The notes under the pieces were generated by a model that saw nothing but the letters and a program-made list of their open reading frames with translations, was not told the origin of the DNA and ran no database searches. From NCBI GenBank assembly GCA_030750865.1, contig JASMHE010000008.1, positions 682,001 through 746,000 on the forward strand: 64,000 bases of DNA, given 5' to 3'. Made by a program: the position numbers and the translations under genes. Shown here piece by piece: positions 14,132 through 24,126 of the stretch (position 1 is the stretch's first letter; each line of letters begins with the position of its first letter). Source of the DNA: Alphaproteobacteria bacterium (GTDB lineage: Bacteria; Pseudomonadota; Alphaproteobacteria; Micavibrionales; Micavibrionaceae).

Positions 14132-15910
14132 ATGGGACTTTTTGGATCACTCTTTACCGGCGTATCGGGCCTGAATGCGGAATCGCAAGCAACAGCCATG
14201 ATTGCCAACAATATTTCAAACACAAACACGATCGGCTTTAAACGCTCCGAAGCATCGTTCTCATCATTGGTGACAACGCAGAGCCGCTCTTCTGAATTCT
14301 CGCCCGGTACGGTGTCTGTGACCCGCCTCCAGCGTGTGGATCAGCAAGGCGCATTGCAACAAACATCATCATCAACAGATGTGGCGATCTCCGGTAACGG
14401 TTTCTTCCCGGTCAAACAGGACGCACTGGAAGATCAGGAATTCCTGTACACACGCAGTGGCTCGTTCAGTGAAGACTCACAAGGCCTTCTGCGGAACACA
14501 GCCGGTTTCGTTCTGTACGGATGGCCGATCAACCAGAACGGCGAACTGCCTGCCGATCAGGGCGACTTGTCATCACTGCAGCCACTTGATGTTGCCTTCC
14601 TGGGTGGTTTGACACGCCCGACGACAGAAGCCGAACTGGCCATCAACCTTGATGAATCAGAAGCCCAATATAACACGGTCAACATCGCCGGGGCGGAAGG
14701 TGCAGGCGGCATCAGCTTGCCAACCGATGATATCGAGGCGCACTTCACACGTGGTCTGACGGTTTATGACTCTGTCGGGTCTGCCCAGACAATGACAATG
14801 GAATTCCGCAAAGTAACGGGGCCGATGGCCAACATCACATCCCGTAACGGCGTTTCCCTCGAAGGTGACGATAACATCATCGGTACACTGACAGGCATCG
14901 ACGATGGTGACGCAATTGACATCACAATGGGCGGCGACACGCTGACAATCGAATTTGTCGATGAATCAGGCGACACACCGACAATCGGTGGCGCGACAGG
15001 CGTTGCAACCGTTCAGGAAATGCTGGACGCCATCAACGGCGCGACATTCGGCACAACTGCCGGTATGGAAGCCCGCCTGAACAGCAGCGGACAGCTTGTT
15101 GTCAAAGCCGCATCGCCGGATGAGTCATTCGATATTGCCGATAACACGACCACAAACGGTACATCCGATGCGGTCAGTGGCGGCGGTGATACGTTCGACT
15201 TTGGTGACGATACAACAATTACCGTTGATTACACCGATTACGAAACAACCTATGGCGATCAGACATCCGTCTTCCCTGACCTGTCAAACACATCAACACC
15301 AAACACACAAGGCTGGTGGGAGATGCGCGTGAAGCTGCCAAACGGCTCAACGCTGACAGAAGGTTTGCTGAACTTTAATGGTGACGGCTCTCTGAACGCC
15401 GCATCGGACGCCGATGGTAATATTGATCTCGAATTGGACAATATTGACTGGGGCAATGGTTCGGAACTGCAAGACGTCAATATCGACATTGAACGTTTCA
15501 GCCAGTTCGCAGGGAACTACGACGTGATCTTCTCTGACCAGAACGGTGCCGAGCTAGGCTTGCGTACAGGTGTCGAGATCGACAGCGACGGGATTGTGTC
15601 CGCCCGCTTCTCGAACGGTGCAACCACAGCGCTGTACAAAATTCCGCTGGTAACCTTTGCGAACGCAAACGGCCTGAACGAGAAATCAGGTACAGCTTAC
15701 AGCGAGAACAGCACATCAGGTGAGGAGAACCTGCGCGAGGCCGGATCAGGCGGCGCCGGCTTCCTTGAGCCATCAACACTGGAAGGGTCTAACGTTGACC
15801 TTGCAGACGAATTTGCGAAGCTGATTATTTCGCAGCGCACATTCTCCGCGAACTCCAGATTGGTGAGTACGGTTGACGAAATGACACAGGAACTGCTGCG
15901 TCTGCGTTAA
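14132..15910 (+). CDS. flgE: Flagellar hook protein FlgE
   Basis: A 592-residue hook subunit. The N-terminal D0 segment has SGLNAESQATAMIANNISN and the C-terminal D0 has TLEGSNVDLADEFAKLIISQ and ends STVDEMTQELLRLR. The middle is expanded relative to 400-residue enterobacterial hooks. Residues about 248-335 look like a Flagellin_IN-type beta module (repeated DTLTIEF...TVQEMLDAIN...LVVKAASP pattern). AAAGGAGA lies eight bases upstream. Last gene of the flgI run; no T-rich terminator follows, but a structured element does. Confidence 0.94.
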   Translation: MGLFGSLFTGVSGLNAESQATAMIANNISNTNTIGFKRSEASFSSLVTTQSRSSEFSPGTVSVTRLQRVDQQGALQQTSSSTDVAISGNGFFPVKQDALEDQEFLYTRSGSFSEDSQGLLRNTAGFVLYGWPINQNGELPADQGDLSSLQPLDVAFLGGLTRPTTEAELAINLDESEAQYNTVNIAGAEGAGGISLPTDDIEAHFTRGLTVYDSVGSAQTMTMEFRKVTGPMANITSRNGVSLEGDDNIIGTLTGIDDGDAIDITMGGDTLTIEFVDESGDTPTIGGATGVATVQEMLDAINGATFGTTAGMEARLNSSGQLVVKAASPDESFDIADNTTTNGTSDAVSGGGDTFDFGDDTTITVDYTDYETTYGDQTSVFPDLSNTSTPNTQGWWEMRVKLPNGSTLTEGLLNFNGDGSLNAASDADGNIDLELDNIDWGNGSELQDVNIDIERFSQFAGNYDVIFSDQNGAELGLRTGVEIDSDGIVSARFSNGATTALYKIPLVTFANANGLNEKSGTAYSENSTSGEENLREAGSGGAGFLEPSTLEGSNVDLADEFAKLIISQRTFSANSRLVSTVDEMTQELLRLR

Positions 15911-15930
15911 TCGCTAACCTAACGACTTCC

Positions 15931-16040
15931 CCCGGCCGGCAGAAGCCGCCGGGAAAGGGCGTCCCAACATCACAGGCAGAAGGCCTGCGATAGAAGGATC
16001 AAGAACCGGTCCTTCCAGTGGACGCCCTTCCCTTCGGGGA
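15931..16040 (+). other. Multi-stem structured RNA-like element after flgE
   Basis: The 183-base gap downstream of flgE can fold extensively. Hairpin 1 pairs 15931-15940 with 15945-15953. A closing helix pairs 15951-15964 with 16020-16032 (13 pairs, one bulged A), enclosing two hairpins, 15973-15987 and 15993-16015. The 3' arm of the closing helix also begins a hairpin with a UUCG loop (16029-16040), so the two are mutually exclusive. No T tract follows. I do not recognise the class. It could be a 3' structure of the flgE message, a leader of the next gene or a small RNA. Confidence 0.5.
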
Positions 16041-16093
16041 CAATTAATGTCATCCTATAGTTGGCATAAATTAATCAGGGAAATATTTCAATC

Positions 16094-17167
16094 ATGCAAA
16101 CATCCACGAACATTCAGACACAATCGGCAGATACAATTGGTTATTGCACATCACTTGCCCGTTCACTCAAAGAGAACAAAACCAATCACGCCGCCCGCAA
16201 AATTTCGATGGCACAGGCCCTAAGACGTAATTTTGTAAAATATCTGACAAGCACATTATTCCTTGATGATTCCAAAATCACAGATTACTGCAAAAAATTC
16301 TCGGCCCTGACCGGACAAGAGTTCAGCACATGGGAACAAACACTGGACTATGCACCGGATCTTCCGGTTACCTCCCGTAAAATCGACATCAAACAACGCG
16401 ATAACAGCGATTTATGCCCGCCAGCGAAAACACTGTCAGATTTATGCACCGACCTTGATTTCGACGGCTATACCGCCATCGTACACGGCAGTCTGGCCGA
16501 CGGCAAATACACGCATTACAGCGATGTCGATATTTCTGTGTTCATTGAAAAAGACGCGCTGACCGACACAAAAAAACGCTCTACCCTGCTGCATGAAATC
16601 ACAACCATAAACCAGGCAATTGAACGGATTGACCCTGTCGGACACCACGGCTGTTTTATCAATCTTGCACAAGATTTAGACTGCTATCCCGAAGCGCACA
16701 TGCCGCTTGATGTACTCAATGGCGGCTTTTCCTTGAACGGCAAAGCATTTTCCCGCGACATCATGGTGCGCGACAGTCTTGATTACGCCTTTTTGACCTT
16801 GATTGATCTATGCGGCTTTTTCATCAATTTGCCACAACAGAACATGCCTACGGATGCGGCCACCATCAAAAATATTATCAGCCGCTTTTTCATTATCAAT
16901 CTGTTGCATTACGAACTTTTTCATCAGGATTTTGCGGAAAAACGCGCCATCCTGACCGGCGGCCTGCAAGATATAGCGACGCCAACGCAACAGGACACGC
17001 TGGATATGTTGACCGAGATCCGTGACATATGGCCGGAAACAACAGAAAACAAAGCCTATGCCATTTCAAGACCGCTGATACAGCACTGCGCCGATACCGC
17101 CGCCGACATTCTGGATCATCTCGTCGAGAACGGGAAGATCGCGGCAATCGAGAGCGCATGGACCTAA
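16094..17167 (+). CDS. Nucleotidyltransferase-fold protein
   Basis: A 357-residue protein of unknown specific role. The segment AIVHGSLADGKYTHYSDVDISVFI (about 128-151) contains the polymerase-beta-type nucleotidyltransferase signature, with Gly-Ser at 132-133 and the metal-binding Asp pair at 144 and 146. The helical C-terminal part (about 230-350) could be a substrate domain. It is nineteen bases from the next gene, which has a related motif. Placed between hook and flagellin genes beside two glycosyltransferases, it may activate or attach a nucleotide-linked group for flagellin modification. An antitoxin-like MNT role is less likely because no HEPN partner is seen. Confidence 0.6.
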   Translation: MQTSTNIQTQSADTIGYCTSLARSLKENKTNHAARKISMAQALRRNFVKYLTSTLFLDDSKITDYCKKFSALTGQEFSTWEQTLDYAPDLPVTSRKIDIKQRDNSDLCPPAKTLSDLCTDLDFDGYTAIVHGSLADGKYTHYSDVDISVFIEKDALTDTKKRSTLLHEITTINQAIERIDPVGHHGCFINLAQDLDCYPEAHMPLDVLNGGFSLNGKAFSRDIMVRDSLDYAFLTLIDLCGFFINLPQQNMPTDAATIKNIISRFFIINLLHYELFHQDFAEKRAILTGGLQDIATPTQQDTLDMLTEIRDIWPETTENKAYAISRPLIQHCADTAADILDHLVENGKIAAIESAWT

Positions 17168-17186
17168 ACATCAAAGGACACGCATC

Positions 17187-18269
17187 ATGACAAAAAGACT
17201 GACAAAAGCAGATTACACCAATGCCTGCAAAACCCTTGCAAGCGCATTTGAAGACTGCCCCGACACGATAAAACCGGTCACGATTATACAGAACGGCAAA
17301 GTCGGCACGCCCGGCGTGTCCGATATCGATCTGATCTTTGTGTTCCCCGCAGATTTCACAGCGGGAGATGAATTCAAAACCTATTACGAGAATGTCATTA
17401 ACAACATTCCGCACAAAGAAACTTTCTTTATCCATTCCCCGATTGTCATTGATGAACATAACGTCAAAGACCTGCCGCTTTACACCATGAATCCGGCCCG
17501 TAACATGAAAATTATCTTCGGCAAGAAACCGGATTTCAGCGCGCAAGATACATCACGCATGCAATCGGCGTTAATCAGCATGGAATTTATACAATTCCGT
17601 CTCATCCAGCTGATGAGCATGCTGGTCAACAACCATTATGACCTCAACAGTATTTTGCTGCGTGGACATACACTGGCCCATTCCATTTCACTGGCCAAAC
17701 GCGCAAAGATACAAGTCGATGACAAAATGTTCAAAGGGCTTGGCTATGTTGAAGAGTTCCGCGATCAGATGGCAAAAGGACAAGCGGTGCAAATCAGTGA
17801 CGCCGACACCAAAAAGCTTTTCATGCGTGTTGTGAAGGAATTTTATATCCTTTACCTGCAATTCTGTAACCTGATGGAAGAGCATATTCATTTTTATGCC
17901 CCCGAAGACGGCCATTACGAATATACACAGAATGTCTTTCTGGCCGGCGTTCTAACCCGCAGCGAAGAATTCAAAGCCCATACCGCCGAAGGAAAAACCG
18001 TTTATCAAGGCCTGCACTGGACCAATATGGCGCTCCGTGATCTCTATTTCGGTCTTGACCAAAAAAACAGCAAAATTCTAGTCACAGAGGAATTGCGTGC
18101 GGAGTGTGAAAAACGGCGAGATTTTATGAAGAACGTGTGGGCATGGAACGTCAAAGCCTTTGGCAACATGAATGCGGGCCTTAGCCATAAACCATGCGTG
18201 GACGGCACTGTCACAGAAACACTGGCCGCACAGCATCTCGACCTGAAAACGTACGCAGACGCCGCTTAA
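17187..18269 (+). CDS. Protein with nucleotidyltransferase-like motif, unknown function
   Basis: A 360-residue protein I cannot name. Near the N-terminus NGKVGTPGVSDIDLIFVF (about 36-53) resembles the Gly-x-Ser...Asp-x-Asp motif of nucleotidyltransferases, with Asp46 and Asp48 as potential metal ligands. The usual Gly-Ser is replaced by a Gly-Thr-Pro-Gly turn. The remainder is mostly helical. AAAGGA precedes the ATG, and the spacing to the upstream nucleotidyltransferase gene implies one transcript. The pair may act together; linkage to flagellin glycosylation is inferred from position only. Confidence 0.45.
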   Translation: MTKRLTKADYTNACKTLASAFEDCPDTIKPVTIIQNGKVGTPGVSDIDLIFVFPADFTAGDEFKTYYENVINNIPHKETFFIHSPIVIDEHNVKDLPLYTMNPARNMKIIFGKKPDFSAQDTSRMQSALISMEFIQFRLIQLMSMLVNNHYDLNSILLRGHTLAHSISLAKRAKIQVDDKMFKGLGYVEEFRDQMAKGQAVQISDADTKKLFMRVVKEFYILYLQFCNLMEEHIHFYAPEDGHYEYTQNVFLAGVLTRSEEFKAHTAEGKTVYQGLHWTNMALRDLYFGLDQKNSKILVTEELRAECEKRRDFMKNVWAWNVKAFGNMNAGLSHKPCVDGTVTETLAAQHLDLKTYADAA

Positions 18270-18311
18270 AAGCGTCAGAACACCGTTGTCCAACACAGCA
18301 TAGCCCCCTTA

Positions 18312-19247
18312 TTACGCCGCACGGGCATATTGCCCGATAACAGCATCTAATTCCTGCAGTTTGTCAGCAATGCCAAAATGTGTGACGGCATAATCCCGCC
18401 ATTGATGCAGCTCCGCATCCGCAATCATTTCCGCCGCACGGTCAACAGACGCAAAACGGATGTCATCGGGCCAAAATTCATCCGCACCGATATAATCATA
18501 CACAGCCGGGAATGCCCCGACGGCCATCCCTTCTGCGATATTATAGCCGAAGCTTTCATGCACGGACGTTGACAAAACAATGCCTTTATCCGCGTAAAAG
18601 GCGGGCATGTCCTCGATCCAGTTATTGAAGAATGCATTCTTCTGCAATCCCAGCCGTTCTACAATATGCTTCATATGTGGCCCGATAATACGTGGTTCGA
18701 AACCACCGGCAAAATGCATTTCATAACGTTCATCCACCGTCACAAGTTTATGCAAGATTTGCAGTGCCATCATCGGGTTCTTGCGAATAATCGGTTTGGC
18801 GACCCACGCGATCTTGAAACGGTCCAGCGCATCAGATTCCGCATAACGGTCAAAATCAAGGCCGTTACCCACAACAGAAACACGTGTTTTCTGTTCCAGA
18901 TCAGGCACTTTTTCAAGCATTACACGTTTCATATCATTTGAAACCAAAATCAGATCATCCACGCATGTCCAATCAACCTTGTTCGGATACGGCATATCGG
19001 TGATTTCGTAACGGTGCCAACGGCAAATCACCCGCTTGCCGAAATTTGAAAGATTTTTATTAATGGCCTGAATAAAAAGATTGTCACAAAACTCGAACCA
19101 GATCACATCGCCCCAGATAATGGCCTTTTCCAGATCAGACACCGTATCAACGCGAAAAACCTGCACATCGAATTGTTCGGACAAATGTTCACGGATATCA
19201 CCGATAAACGTGTCTATTTTCAAAACAATGGCAATTTTCGTTTTCAT
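18312..19247 (-). CDS. GT4-like glycosyltransferase
   Basis: A 311-residue glycosyltransferase with the GT-B C-terminal pattern. FKIAWVAKPIIRKNPMMALQILHKL is the acceptor-to-donor linker, and VHESFGYNIAEGMAVGAFPAVYDYIGADEFW is the sugar-nucleotide site with the EX7E-like glutamate. The ATG at 19247 is chosen over a longer frame that would begin inside the upstream gene; AGGGAG lies upstream of it. It follows the O-GlcNAc-transferase-type gene by 16 bases, so the two are one operon. It likely extends or initiates a glycan, possibly on flagellin. Confidence 0.7.
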   Translation of the reverse strand: MKTKIAIVLKIDTFIGDIREHLSEQFDVQVFRVDTVSDLEKAIIWGDVIWFEFCDNLFIQAINKNLSNFGKRVICRWHRYEITDMPYPNKVDWTCVDDLILVSNDMKRVMLEKVPDLEQKTRVSVVGNGLDFDRYAESDALDRFKIAWVAKPIIRKNPMMALQILHKLVTVDERYEMHFAGGFEPRIIGPHMKHIVERLGLQKNAFFNNWIEDMPAFYADKGIVLSTSVHESFGYNIAEGMAVGAFPAVYDYIGADEFWPDDIRFASVDRAAEMIADAELHQWRDYAVTHFGIADKLQELDAVIGQYARAA

Positions 19248-19263
19248 GCGTGCGCTCCCTGCC

Positions 19264-21372
19264 TCAGTCTTTTTGTTCGAGCCAATCTTTCCACATAAAG
19301 CGGAAGGCCTCTTCGATATGTCCGGCAAAGCGTTTGCCGTCAACCAAAGGCGATGCAGCGACCTTATCACGCATACCCGCACGCAGCGCCGCCAGCCCCT
19401 CCAGATCATCGGCCCATTTCACGGCACAATCAATATAATCCTGCCGCGAGTCCATAATCCATTCCGGATAGCCCGCATTATGCAGGTGTGTTGCCGCATG
19501 CCGCCCTGCGAAAGTCGGGCCAGGCAACGCCAGCACAGGCACACCGAGCCACAGCGCTTCGCATGTGGTCAGGCCGCCTGAATACGGATACGGGTCAAGG
19601 GCAATATCAATGCGGTTATATGTTTTGATGAAATCCTTATGCGGCGCGCCACTTTCAATGATCAGGCGCTCTTCGCCGATCCCGTTCTTTTTGAATGCGC
19701 TCAGAACACGTTCTCGCAGTTCCGGCGATGTCAGCGCAGCACTACTGAACAACATCTTGCTGTCAGGCACAGCCTTTAACACATCCGCCCATAATTTTAG
19801 TGAATATTCATTGGTTTTTGCCGGACTGTTTAAATTCCCGAATGTGATATAGCCGTTTTCCAGCGCAGGCAATGGCGCCACGTCAGGGGCGTAGTGCGGC
19901 GGTTCGTAACAGATATAATCATCCGGCATGCGGTACACACGTTCGGTGTACCATTCATCGTCCCCTTCAGGAATTTCGATATGGTCCCCGATAATCCAGT
20001 CCATCTCGGACAGTCCCGATGTATCAAACAGACCGCCGATCCATTCGATCTGCACAGGGGCGGCGCGCTTGGCAAAGACGCGCAAACGGCCGCCACCTTC
20101 GGCATGTCCCGTCAAATCCATCAACAAATCAATTTCATCTTCGCGGATTTGTGCGATCAACTCGTCATCTGTCATACCCGCCGTATCGTGCCAAATCTCA
20201 CAATTTCCGCGAATACGGTCTGTGAAATCATCCGTCTTATCTTTGCGTAAATCGGAATAGCCCACATAAGACACCTTTGTCTTATCGTGGTGATCAAGAC
20301 CGGGTAGGATCATATAGCCGACCGGATGGCGCTTCAGGTTTGCCGACACCATCCCGACGCGCAGGGGTTTATCGGCTGAACGGTTATTTTCGAACGCAAC
20401 CGGCTCTTCCGGTTTTAATGGCAGACAATAACGGCGGTCATATTCTTTATGCGCGGCAAAAATTTCTTCGCGCTCGATTTTATCCATATAATGGATACAC
20501 ATCAGATAGTTACTGTAGATATTCGACCGTTGCGGTGCCAGTTCGAGCGATTTTTTAAACAGCTTCACCGCTTCTTCAAAATATCCCAAGCGACGTAATA
20601 CACCGGCCTTATTACCCGTTGCATGCGGGTCTTTCGGATTGAGCTGCAACGCTTTATCAAGATATTCCAGCGCCTTTGTCGTTTCCGATGTGTAGTGATA
20701 GCAGACACCCAAATTGCCGTATGCCGATGCAAAGCTTGGATCAGCCTCCACCGCCTTAATCAGCCAGGGCTTGGCGTCCTCATACCGTTCGTAAACCATA
20801 TATAATGCACCGACATGATTTAACGCCTTTGCACTTGATGGATCAAGACGCACCGCCTGCACATAAGACTGCATTGCATCTTCATACCGTGCAACCGCCT
20901 CCAGACAGCTTCCCTTATGCATGTGTCCTTCGGCCAGATTGGGATTAATCTGCAAAGCCTTGTCGATACACGCCATTGCGTCTGCATATTTCTGTATGGT
21001 TGTCAGATACCGTCCTTTTAAACTCCATAATTCGGCCACGTTCGGATTGCGCGCCAATCCCGTATCCAGAATTTTAATAGCCTCGTCATTTTGATCAAGC
21101 GCGTTATACGCATTGGCCATATGGTAATAGACTTCCTTATTTTCCGGCGCTTCCTGTAATACAGAGTCGAAATATTTCAGTGCCTCTTTTGTTTTTCCGG
21201 CCTGATTCAGCGCAATACCGTAAAAAAGACGTCCGGCACGGTTGGCCGGATCAGCTTTCAGAACGAGCTTATAACGCTTCAAAGCACCCTGCACATCGCC
21301 TGATTGGTGCATCTGGATTGTTTTGACAAGTTCCTGCTGTATCTTTTGCGGTGTATTGAGTTTTGGCGCCAT
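19264..21372 (-). CDS. TPR repeat / O-GlcNAc transferase-type (GT41) glycosyltransferase
   Basis: A 702-residue protein with about eight TPR repeats (residues 10-310) joined to a SPINDLY/OGT-like catalytic region (about 335-700). Diagnostic stretches are LMDLTGHAEGGGRLRVFAKR, VQIEWIGG, ITFGNLNSPAK and DPYPYSGGLTTCEALWLGVPVLALPG, followed by AGRHAATHLHNAGYPEW. Eukaryotic OGT transfers GlcNAc to Ser/Thr of proteins; bacterial relatives beside flagellin genes are thought to glycosylate flagellin. The gene is divergent from the flagellin gene, 173 bases away. Substrate and sugar are inferred. Confidence 0.8.
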   Translation of the reverse strand: MAPKLNTPQKIQQELVKTIQMHQSGDVQGALKRYKLVLKADPANRAGRLFYGIALNQAGKTKEALKYFDSVLQEAPENKEVYYHMANAYNALDQNDEAIKILDTGLARNPNVAELWSLKGRYLTTIQKYADAMACIDKALQINPNLAEGHMHKGSCLEAVARYEDAMQSYVQAVRLDPSSAKALNHVGALYMVYERYEDAKPWLIKAVEADPSFASAYGNLGVCYHYTSETTKALEYLDKALQLNPKDPHATGNKAGVLRRLGYFEEAVKLFKKSLELAPQRSNIYSNYLMCIHYMDKIEREEIFAAHKEYDRRYCLPLKPEEPVAFENNRSADKPLRVGMVSANLKRHPVGYMILPGLDHHDKTKVSYVGYSDLRKDKTDDFTDRIRGNCEIWHDTAGMTDDELIAQIREDEIDLLMDLTGHAEGGGRLRVFAKRAAPVQIEWIGGLFDTSGLSEMDWIIGDHIEIPEGDDEWYTERVYRMPDDYICYEPPHYAPDVAPLPALENGYITFGNLNSPAKTNEYSLKLWADVLKAVPDSKMLFSSAALTSPELRERVLSAFKKNGIGEERLIIESGAPHKDFIKTYNRIDIALDPYPYSGGLTTCEALWLGVPVLALPGPTFAGRHAATHLHNAGYPEWIMDSRQDYIDCAVKWADDLEGLAALRAGMRDKVAASPLVDGKRFAGHIEEAFRFMWKDWLEQKD

Positions 21373-21507: not shown

Positions 21508-21545
21508 TTACATATGCAACAAAACCCTAGGAAAGGAGATTCACT

Positions 21546-23123
21546 ATGTCTAGTGATGTTGTTCTATCGTCAGCCCTTAGAAGTAACCTTCTAACGCTGC
21601 AAAACACTCAAAACCAAATTGACAGAACGCAGTTCCGCCTTGCGACAGGTAAGAAAGTTAACTCTGCGCTTGATAACCCGCAGAACTTCTTTACAGCCCA
21701 GTCTATTGGCAACCGCGCGAATGACCTTAGCCGCCTTCTGGACGGTATCGGTCAGTCAATCCGTGCAATCGAAGCAGCTGATAACGGCGTTTCCGCTTTG
21801 ACTGGTTTGCTTGAACAGGCAGATTCTATTGCCACACAAGCACAATCACAGTTGAACAGCGCAAGCAGCTCTGCTGTTGCCGCATCCGATTCATCCGAAC
21901 TGGACGGCACAAACGCAAGCAAAGCGTTGCAGGCTGAAACAACCGTTTCAACAAACGATGCTTTCTCAATCGCTGTTGGTGAGGAAACTGCTGAAACATT
22001 CACAATTTCCGACACAACAACATTGAACTCCCTTGTTTCAGAAATTAATGACCGTGCGTCTGCAGAAGATAAAAGCTTCCGCGCCTCGATCACTTCTGAA
22101 GGTCAGCTTCAGATTTCATCAACAAATGGTGAACGTCTGACACTTGACGACACCACAGGGACAGCACTGAACGACCTCGGTGTTATTGAAAGTGCGTCAG
22201 CTGCGGAAACGTTCCTTCCTGGCGGGTCTCTCGAGATCTCGTTGTCAGGCACAGGTACGATTGACGAAAACACCGACCTGTCTTCATTGACAGAATTTAC
22301 CGGTTTCGACACAACGTCTGATACACTGACAATCAGTGTGGACGGTGCCGGCACCACGACAATTCTGATTGGTGACTCAGGAACAGGCCCACAAACAATT
22401 GATGACTTGATCGATGCGATCAACGAAGCAGGCGTTGACGGTGGTAACCTGGAAGGTCTGACAGCTTCATTTGATGACTCAAACGACTCGATCACAATCA
22501 CCGCAGACAGCGCTGAGATCGACACATTTGAACTGACATCAAACGATGGTAGTGCTGTTGATCTTGGTGAAGGTCAAAACACAAGCGGTACGGCGACGAT
22601 CTTCAGATCAGGTTCCGGTGCGAGTGCAAACGATACACTGACCGATCTGGCTTCGGACTTTAACGAGATCCGTTCACAGATCAACTCGATCGTTGATGAC
22701 GCGAATTATCGCGGGACCAACCTTCTGTCCGGTGACGACTTGATTACAACCTTTAACGAGGACGGATCAAGCACACTGACAACTGAAGGCGTCACGTTTA
22801 CAGCGTCAGGTCTTGGTGTATCAGAAGCTGACTTCACAAGCGCATCAACAATTCAAGCAAGTGTTGATGACATTGAATCAGCTCTGTCTACAGTCCGTCG
22901 TTTCGGTAATACAATTGCCAACGACCTGTCTATCATTCAGACACGTCAGGACTTCACACAGCAGTCAATCAATACGCTGGAAGCTGGCCGCGACGACCTT
23001 ATCGTTGCCGACCAGAACGAAGAAGGCGCGAACTTGCTGGCACTTCAGACCAGACAACAACTTGGTGTTACATCGTTGTCTCTGGCTGCTCAGTCACAGC
23101 AAGCGGTTCTTCGTCTATTCTAA
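21546..23123 (+). CDS. Flagellin, filament subunit
   Basis: A 525-residue flagellin, about twice the length of Caulobacter flagellins. The N-terminal D0/D1 region (1-100) has LTLQNTQNQIDRTQFRLATG and ALDNPQNFFTAQSI; the C-terminal region (about 430-525) ends AAQSQQAVLRLF. The surface-exposed middle is expanded, Ser/Thr/Asp-rich, with two Flagellin_IN-like modules (about 138-200 and 258-322). The many Ser and Thr residues would suit O-glycosylation by the neighbouring OGT-type enzyme. GAAAGGAGA precedes the ATG. It is followed by its own terminator and by flbT and flaF. Confidence 0.96.
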   Translation: MSSDVVLSSALRSNLLTLQNTQNQIDRTQFRLATGKKVNSALDNPQNFFTAQSIGNRANDLSRLLDGIGQSIRAIEAADNGVSALTGLLEQADSIATQAQSQLNSASSSAVAASDSSELDGTNASKALQAETTVSTNDAFSIAVGEETAETFTISDTTTLNSLVSEINDRASAEDKSFRASITSEGQLQISSTNGERLTLDDTTGTALNDLGVIESASAAETFLPGGSLEISLSGTGTIDENTDLSSLTEFTGFDTTSDTLTISVDGAGTTTILIGDSGTGPQTIDDLIDAINEAGVDGGNLEGLTASFDDSNDSITITADSAEIDTFELTSNDGSAVDLGEGQNTSGTATIFRSGSGASANDTLTDLASDFNEIRSQINSIVDDANYRGTNLLSGDDLITTFNEDGSSTLTTEGVTFTASGLGVSEADFTSASTIQASVDDIESALSTVRRFGNTIANDLSIIQTRQDFTQQSINTLEAGRDDLIVADQNEEGANLLALQTRQQLGVTSLSLAAQSQQAVLRLF

Positions 23124-23270: not shown

Positions 23271-23654
23271 ATGGCGCTTATTATTGATCTCAAACCAGGT
23301 GAAAAATTTCTCGTTGGCGATGCTGTCATTACAAATGACGATCAGCGAACAAGGTTGCATATTGCCGGGGACTCCCCCATCATGCGGGAAAAGGACATCC
23401 TGAAAGAAGAGAACGCCGACACACCGTGCAAGCGCGTCTATTTCCTTGTGCAGTGTATGTATCTGTCCCGCACACCGCAGGACTATCACGAGGCATATTT
23501 CAAGCTTATCAATGAAATCCAGAAGGCTTCGCCCCATTCCAGCTTTTACTTCATGACCATCAACGACAAGATTATGGACGGTCATTACTATAAAGCCCTG
23601 AAAGCAGCAAAAGAACTCATCAAATTTGAAGAGGAGCTAACAACCAATGTCTAA
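23271..23654 (+). CDS. flbT: Flagellin synthesis post-transcriptional regulator FlbT
   Basis: A 127-residue FlbT with the family features IIDLKPGEKFLVGDAVITND, the PIMREKDIL segment and KRVYFLVQCMYLSRTPQDYHEAY. In Caulobacter, FlbT binds the 5' leader of flagellin mRNA and promotes its decay until the hook is complete. The flagellin leader in this window carries a suitable hairpin. AAGGAAG lies before the ATG. The C-terminus overlaps the start of flaF by eight bases, coupling the two antagonistic regulators. Confidence 0.93.
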   Translation: MALIIDLKPGEKFLVGDAVITNDDQRTRLHIAGDSPIMREKDILKEENADTPCKRVYFLVQCMYLSRTPQDYHEAYFKLINEIQKASPHSSFYFMTINDKIMDGHYYKALKAAKELIKFEEELTTNV

Positions 23655-24126
23655 GAACTCGACAGAAAACCCATACGCACAGGCTGCTGGAACCTATGGC
23701 GCTCACGCCCAGAAACACACGCCGGACCAGAGAGAGCTCGAGGCGCGCATTTTGCTTAAATCCGCAAAGATGCTCAAAGACCTGCAAAAAGACTGGGACG
23801 CTGCAAACTCAGAGATTCTCGCCGAAACACTGAAATATAACAGACAAATATGGATGATGTTCTATGATACGGCTCTGGAGAATCCGGAAGAAAACCGCCC
23901 GAACGACCTACGCAGTAACATTATTAATCTCGCGAACTTCATCTTTAAACGCGAACTGGAAGTTCTGAACCAACCGGCAAGCGAAAAGCTTGATATCCTG
24001 ATCAGTATTAATCAGGACATCGCAGCCGGCTTACTCGCGAAACCGGATCCAGACGCTATGAAAGATGATAAAAAGCAGGATGAGACCAACGGTCATGCAA
24101 ATCGTCAAACCGATTCGCATGCGTAA
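23647..24126 (+). CDS. flaF: Flagellar biosynthesis regulator FlaF
   Basis: A 159-residue FlaF. The conserved region runs from NPYAQAAGTYGAHAQKH through ELEARILLKSAKMLKDLQKDW, QIWMMFYDTAL and NIINLANFIFKRELEVL. FlaF is needed for flagellin translation and secretion and opposes FlbT. The last 35 residues form a polar Lys/Asp/Gln tail beyond the usual family length. It overlaps flbT and ends 36 bases from a converging FlaG-like gene. Confidence 0.93.
   Translation: MSKNSTENPYAQAAGTYGAHAQKHTPDQRELEARILLKSAKMLKDLQKDWDAANSEILAETLKYNRQIWMMFYDTALENPEENRPNDLRSNIINLANFIFKRELEVLNQPASEKLDILISINQDIAAGLLAKPDPDAMKDDKKQDETNGHANRQTDSHA

Follow-up and report, generated by a model that had tools for sequence, protein, structure and literature searches.

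A variable flgE-flagellin interval with a TPR-GT41 glycosyltransferase and two candidate nucleotidyltransferases in an alphaproteobacterial genome

The window, a stretch of 64,000 nucleotides (G000:C8:682001-746000) from a genome of 2.19 Mb (99.75% complete), was found to carry four genes between that of the hook protein FlgE (14132..15910, + strand; Pfam Flg_bbr_C, LlgE_F_G_D1 and FlgE_D2) and that of a flagellin of 525 aa (21546..23123, +; Pfam Flagellin_N and composition), with flbT and flaF (23271..24126, +; Pfam FlbT and FlaF) lying downstream; these last two genes point to an alphaproteobacterial genome. These assignments agree with a first-pass annotation, made from the sequence alone, that had placed the four genes between hook and flagellin genes. 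Next to flgE are the ORFs of NT1, a pol-beta-type nucleotidyltransferase of 357 aa (16094..17167, +), and NT2, a probable nucleotidyltransferase of 360 aa (17187..18269, +), separated by 19 nt. On the other strand lie a TPR-GT41 protein O-glycosyltransferase of 702 aa (OGT, P0004; 19264..21372, -) and, as the second gene of its operon, a GT4-like glycosyltransferase of 311 aa (GT4, P0003; 18312..19247, -), with 16 nt between the OGT stop and the preferred GT4 start at 19247. Since NT1-NT2 and OGT-GT4 converge, they do not make up one operon, and the single cassette proposed by the first-pass annotation is replaced by what would, by layout, be two convergent operons. All four genes were ordinary for the window in codon usage and GC3, and NT1 and NT2 therefore look like genuine, long-resident genes. 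Scans for sigma-54 and sigma-70 promoters gave nothing above chance. Strong RNA structure was predicted for the flgE-NT1 intergenic region (15911-16093, z -4.9), and the corresponding region of a sister genome, G001, is likewise structured (L034:225-415, z about -10 against mononucleotide shuffles).

Both glycosyltransferases named in that annotation were recovered with Pfam, the OGT through its TPRs and Glyco_transf_41 (156 bits) and GT4 through Glycos_transf_1 (35.7 bits, with a cut-off of 26.4) and Glyco_trans_1_4. The nearest PDB entries to the OGT were SPINDLY (E 3e-113) and OGTs, and alignment to these showed conservation of the positions of the active-site His (KRHPVG) and Lys (SPAKTNEY). 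At the sequence level, the OGT is thus confirmed as a TPR-GT41 enzyme and GT4 as a GT4-type transferase. The TPR-GT41 architecture and catalytic His and Lys positions are common to the O-GlcNAc transferase (GT41) and the SPINDLY O-fucosyltransferase; unlike these, the OGT of the window is encoded beside flagellin, its presumed substrate. No counterpart of GT4 was found in 57 relatives.

The claim of two adjacent nucleotidyltransferases held for NT1, which scored 24.0 bits against Pfam NTP_transf_2 (cut-off 21, E 5e-5) and could be aligned with nucleotidyltransferases of relatives, whereas for NT2 it held at the level of the motif and not of the family score. The motif of NT1, HGSLADGKYTHYSDVDI, comprises GS at residues 132-133, D144 and D146, with D196 as a candidate third acid; NT1 is confirmed, by sequence comparison, as a pol-beta-type nucleotidyltransferase. 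That of NT2, NGKVGTPGVSDIDL, contains D46 and D48, with D89/E90 as the candidate third acid. Full-length NT2 matched no Pfam or NCBIfam family; its residues 1-120 gave Pfam matches to GlnE (E 0.08) and NTP_transf_2 (E 0.21; 12.4 bits, under the 21-bit cut-off), both on GKVGTPGVSDIDL, and its best match among 299 genomes of the phylum was to the GlnE motif (E 5.6e-4). AlphaFold2 models built from single sequences had pLDDT values of 45 and 40 and gave no useful match with Foldseek or VIA-align, and statements on fold are restricted to the N-terminal topology of NT2, modelled as alpha-beta-beta-alpha-beta-beta at low confidence (pLDDT about 50-75). The C-terminal half of NT2 is helical and had no family match. 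From the motif-level evidence and the predicted N-terminal topology, NT2 is a probable nucleotidyltransferase and, as these two agree, may function as an NTP_transf_2 enzyme despite its score below the cut-off.

When each sequence was shuffled 20,000 times, the pattern G[SGK]..[ST]DxD turned up in 22 shuffled versions of NT2 and 51 of NT1; it was absent from the remaining 851 ORFs, those of the fetched loci included, that were compared with the window pair. No mutual similarity was detectable between NT1 and NT2, neither has the TPRs of most enzymes found in this interval among relatives, and scanning them whole and in pieces (Pfam, NCBIfam, PHROGs and PADLOC) gave no curated family at full length. 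The GS/GK...SDxD motif is common to them and to MntA, Lnu and GlnE of the pol-beta superfamily, from which they differ in their long extra helical regions and in the lack of a full-length curated family match.

Relatives of NT1 and NT2 were absent from 57 near relatives, and no match held up among 385 genomes of the class; for NT2, none was found among 142 genomes of the order or 299 of the phylum. Searches by peptide pattern, able to detect close relatives only, found neither protein in 84,980 species genomes (GTDB r220) or in viral contigs, and tblastn found neither in phages or plasmids. Weak matches to NT2 in G002, G713 and G564, and to NT1 in G258, were rejected as chance similarity to unrelated proteins. 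Within the sampled genomes and databases, both are thus orphans. NTP_transf_2 proteins as such were identified in 22 of 58 genomes, NT1 being the only one in its own genome and the only one of them between flgE and flagellin, with the others in contexts away from flagellin. Four of the latter (G031, G048, G004 and G038) are nucleotidyltransferases of 346-405 aa followed by an MBL-fold gene, and NT1 aligns with them in the motif region and not over the whole protein. This pairing of a nucleotidyltransferase with an MBL-fold-like gene recurs in other genera of the order (L117:4667-6539, L118:144-1960, L120:4429-6430 and L122:607-2623).

Comparison with the same-genus genome G001 showed the same order of flgE, OGT (55% identical), flagellin (63%), flbT and flaF. 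The OGT is the sole gene between flgE and flagellin there, with no NT1, NT2 or GT4 in the interval, and these three genes were therefore either gained in G000 or lost in G001. As the slot of the sister holds OGT only, they look like an addition to a pre-existing flagellin-OGT pair.

Flagellin regions were taken from about 40 genomes of the order and the flgE-to-flagellin interval was read, with flgE and flagellin lying on one piece in 25 genomes (window included). Enzymes occupied the interval in 12 of the 25; the other 13 (G005, G007, G008, G009, G010, G012, G016, G022, G028, G029, G035, G036 and G041) were empty or held flagellin paralogues and small ORFs only. Outside the window, 14 of 15 slot proteins carry a Pfam transferase domain, mostly TPR-linked: two TPR-GT41 proteins (G001, G025), six sulfotransferases (G030, G032, G011, G040 and two in G050, with Pfam TPRs in all except G032), four methyltransferases (G030, G011, G024 and G033, TPR-linked in G033) and two TPR-pyruvyltransferases (G043, G047). 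The slot of G025 also contains a protein of 357 aa with no Pfam match, whose VLELGSG and IIVDGP motifs are methyltransferase-like. In G011 and G024 the slot enzymes lie between two flagellin genes, and the same kinds of enzyme were found near flagellin on pieces of G026 and G055 that lack flgE. Several slot proteins initially labelled OGT through a TPR-only BLAST match are in fact sulfo-, methyl- or pyruvyltransferases. Across the order, these intervals hold only flagellin genes, small ORFs and candidate modification enzymes, and the nucleotidyltransferase motif occurs in no slot protein outside the window. The flgE-flagellin interval appears to be a swap-in slot for alternative protein-decorating enzymes across related bacteria.

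Cytoplasmic modification of flagellin is known for few sugars and few enzyme types. If the above reading of the slot is true, glycosyl-, sulfo-, methyl- and pyruvyltransferases that modify flagellin would be collected at a single genomic site as a ready-made natural catalogue, and slot swapping would help explain the diversification of surface flagellin, for which recognition by phages or predators may be one pressure. Sulfotransferases, mostly TPR-linked, adjoin flagellin at L070:8070-10007, L073:11144-12748, L077:10691-12376, L102:10037-11611 and L103:10283-13347; their position suggests sulfated flagellin in those relatives, and a search of the available literature found no paper tying TPR-sulfotransferases to flagellin.

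A TPR-GT41 gene adjoins flagellin in seven genomes from two families, namely in the window, where the two are divergent, and in six other genomes (G001, G025, G009, G044, G053 and G056), of which G044, G053 and G056 belong to another family and present a different setting. In G009 (G009:C18; L036, L037), four GT41-type genes and genes resembling those of nucleotide-sugar biosynthesis form a large glycosylation island near flagellin. The variable region of the window flagellin is 29% Ser+Thr, the highest of 45 compared, and GT41-adjacent flagellins were richer in Ser+Thr than others (one-sided p 0.026, uncorrected for kinship), a richness that would lend weak support to flagellin glycosylation. 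A precedent exists in FlmG of Caulobacter crescentus, a TPR-glycosyltransferase of 596 aa that binds and glycosylates flagellin with pseudaminic acid as donor, and whose transferase is described only as of the GT-B superfamily (PMC7591256). The OGT of the window resembles it in being an alphaproteobacterial protein with a cytoplasmic TPR N-terminus and a GT-B-type transferase encoded with flagellin, on which it is predicted to act, and differs in being a GT41 enzyme of 702 aa closest in the PDB to SPINDLY/OGT. Judging by position, recurrence and the FlmG precedent, flagellin is probably the substrate of both OGT and GT4.

The sugar used may not be that of FlmG. A single NeuB gene was identified in G000, beside a CMP-sugar cytidylyltransferase (CTP_transf_3) at about 302 kb of G000:C8; hundreds of kb separate the two genes from the slot, and they do not lie near flagellar genes. 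The tandem there comprises a short NeuB (290 aa), the cytidylyltransferase and a phosphatase-like gene (L058:9708-11866; G000:C8 about 301.7-303.9 kb). NeuB was found in G000 and G025 and not in the OGT-bearing sister G001 (87% complete); its presence does not correlate with that of OGT among the relatives, and the GT41 donor may therefore well be another sugar.

Taken as a whole, the locus is tentatively read as a species-specific version of the flagellin-modification slot, in which an OGT/GT4 glycan is joined by a group added by the nucleotidyltransferases, a scheme to which we give slightly less than even credence. In the cytoplasm, OGT would hold flagellin through its TPR domain and attach an initial sugar, through its GT41 domain, to Ser/Thr in the variable region, after which GT4, co-operonic with OGT, would lengthen the glycan. 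NT1, with NT2 as a partner or second enzyme, would then move an NMP from an NTP onto a hydroxyl of the glycan or flagellin, yielding a phospho-linked decoration. Pol-beta-type nucleotidyltransferases transfer NMP to hydroxyls, making this the likeliest chemistry for the pair, and since the slot swaps protein-decorating enzymes among related bacteria, the pair may add an unusual tag to the flagellum. That NT1 and NT2 place a nucleotide or phospho group on the flagellin decoration is nevertheless a plausible but rather doubtful proposition, suggested by position alone. We know of no nucleotidyltransferase chemistry on flagella; that the pair represents the first known case of pol-beta-type nucleotidyltransferases devoted to flagellin, with NMP on a GT41-made glycan or flagellin as one of several slot chemistries (sugar, sulfate, methyl, pyruvyl and nucleotide), is more speculative still and we consider it unlikely.

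Phospho-linked flagellin glycans requiring a nucleotide-activating gene have been described in Pseudomonas aeruginosa PAO1 and Clostridioides difficile (PMC11833859, PMC4441256). Like the window, the b-type (PA1088-PA1091) and type A (CD0240-CD0244) loci combine a glycosyltransferase with a nucleotide-activating gene at flagellin. Methyltransferase, kinase and phosphotransferase genes are present in both loci, whereas the slot has none of these, and their genes are unlike the pol-beta-type NT1 and NT2. A pathway of either type was rejected here, the slot genes being solely NT1, NT2, GT4 and OGT. That the precedent genes belong to other families counts against the proposed scheme, as do the convergent layout, by which NT1-NT2 are not co-transcribed with OGT-GT4, the absence elsewhere of a homologous NT1-NT2 pair that would show co-inheritance, the want of TPRs in both proteins, the motif-level basis for the fold of NT2, and the sister genome, in which flagellin and OGT are paired with neither nucleotidyltransferase.

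Alternatively, NT1 and NT2 may be an unrelated pair, whether toxin-antitoxin-like, conferring resistance to a small molecule or of another kind, that has lodged in an interval tolerant of new genes, leaving flagellin to be modified by OGT, and perhaps GT4, only. This is a serious possibility, if one we would not bet on. It accords with the convergent strand, with the sister genome lacking the pair, with the weak similarity of NT1 to MntA (22.6 bits), Lnu(F) and nucleotidyltransferase proteins of PADLOC, and with the scatter of NTP_transf_2 proteins among relatives. As the motif-region matches of NT1 are the nucleotidyltransferases beside MBL-fold genes, its nearest detectable kin are non-flagellar, which keeps this explanation alive. 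However, the PADLOC scores were weak only, and the other slot proteins of the order whose domains could be recognised are all modification enzymes. A type VII MntA/HepT toxin-antitoxin system in particular was rejected, the 22.6 bits of NT1 falling short of the 60-bit cut-off, no HEPN partner being recognised and NT2 fitting no family.

It is distinctly improbable that the pair nucleotidylylates a protein (flagellin, or a regulator such as FlbT or FlaF) independently of any glycan, as GlnE does glutamine synthetase; the motif of NT2 is closest to that of GlnE, but this likeness is confined to a short motif and no regulatory domain was found. That the pair supplies OGT or GT4 with an NDP- or CMP-sugar donor, close to the sugar activation raised in the first-pass annotation, is very improbable despite the neighbouring glycosyltransferases, given that sugar-1-phosphate nucleotidyltransferases have a different fold from the pol-beta superfamily, that NT1 and NT2 matched no sugar-nucleotidyltransferase family of Pfam or NCBIfam at E up to 1, and that the genome has its separate NeuB and CTP_transf_3 pair.

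Two further elements were observed around these flagellin genes. The motif CCCTAGGAAAGGA lies in the flagellin 5' leader directly ahead of the start codon in the window (21524-21537), in the sister (L034:2773-2785) and at other flagellin loci, and is conserved across the genera of the family; as a guess, it is a possible target of FlbT. Separately, a structured RNA candidate with no Rfam match was identified in the flgE-flagellin interval of seven related genera (L075:7628-7827, L077:15795-16030(-), L084:11242-11431(-), L068:6544-6722, L069:8420-8615, L071:8666-8892 and L067:10913-11094(-)). In its hairpin P1 the stem covaries and the loop, TGCTACCCGGCATNCCCTAACCCC, is constant; P2 and a long terminator-like stem, GGGCGCAYCGG...CCGGTGCGCCC, follow, and at least one double-sided change was seen in 14 of 36 predicted pairs (six sequences). 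The structured regions at 15911-16093 of the window and L034:225-415 of the sister do not match this candidate, and a covariance model built on the first part of the RNA found no copy in G000 or G001. Each of the six genomes used for training yielded a single copy, directly following flgE, and G036, which was outside the training set, yielded one more (E 1e-8).
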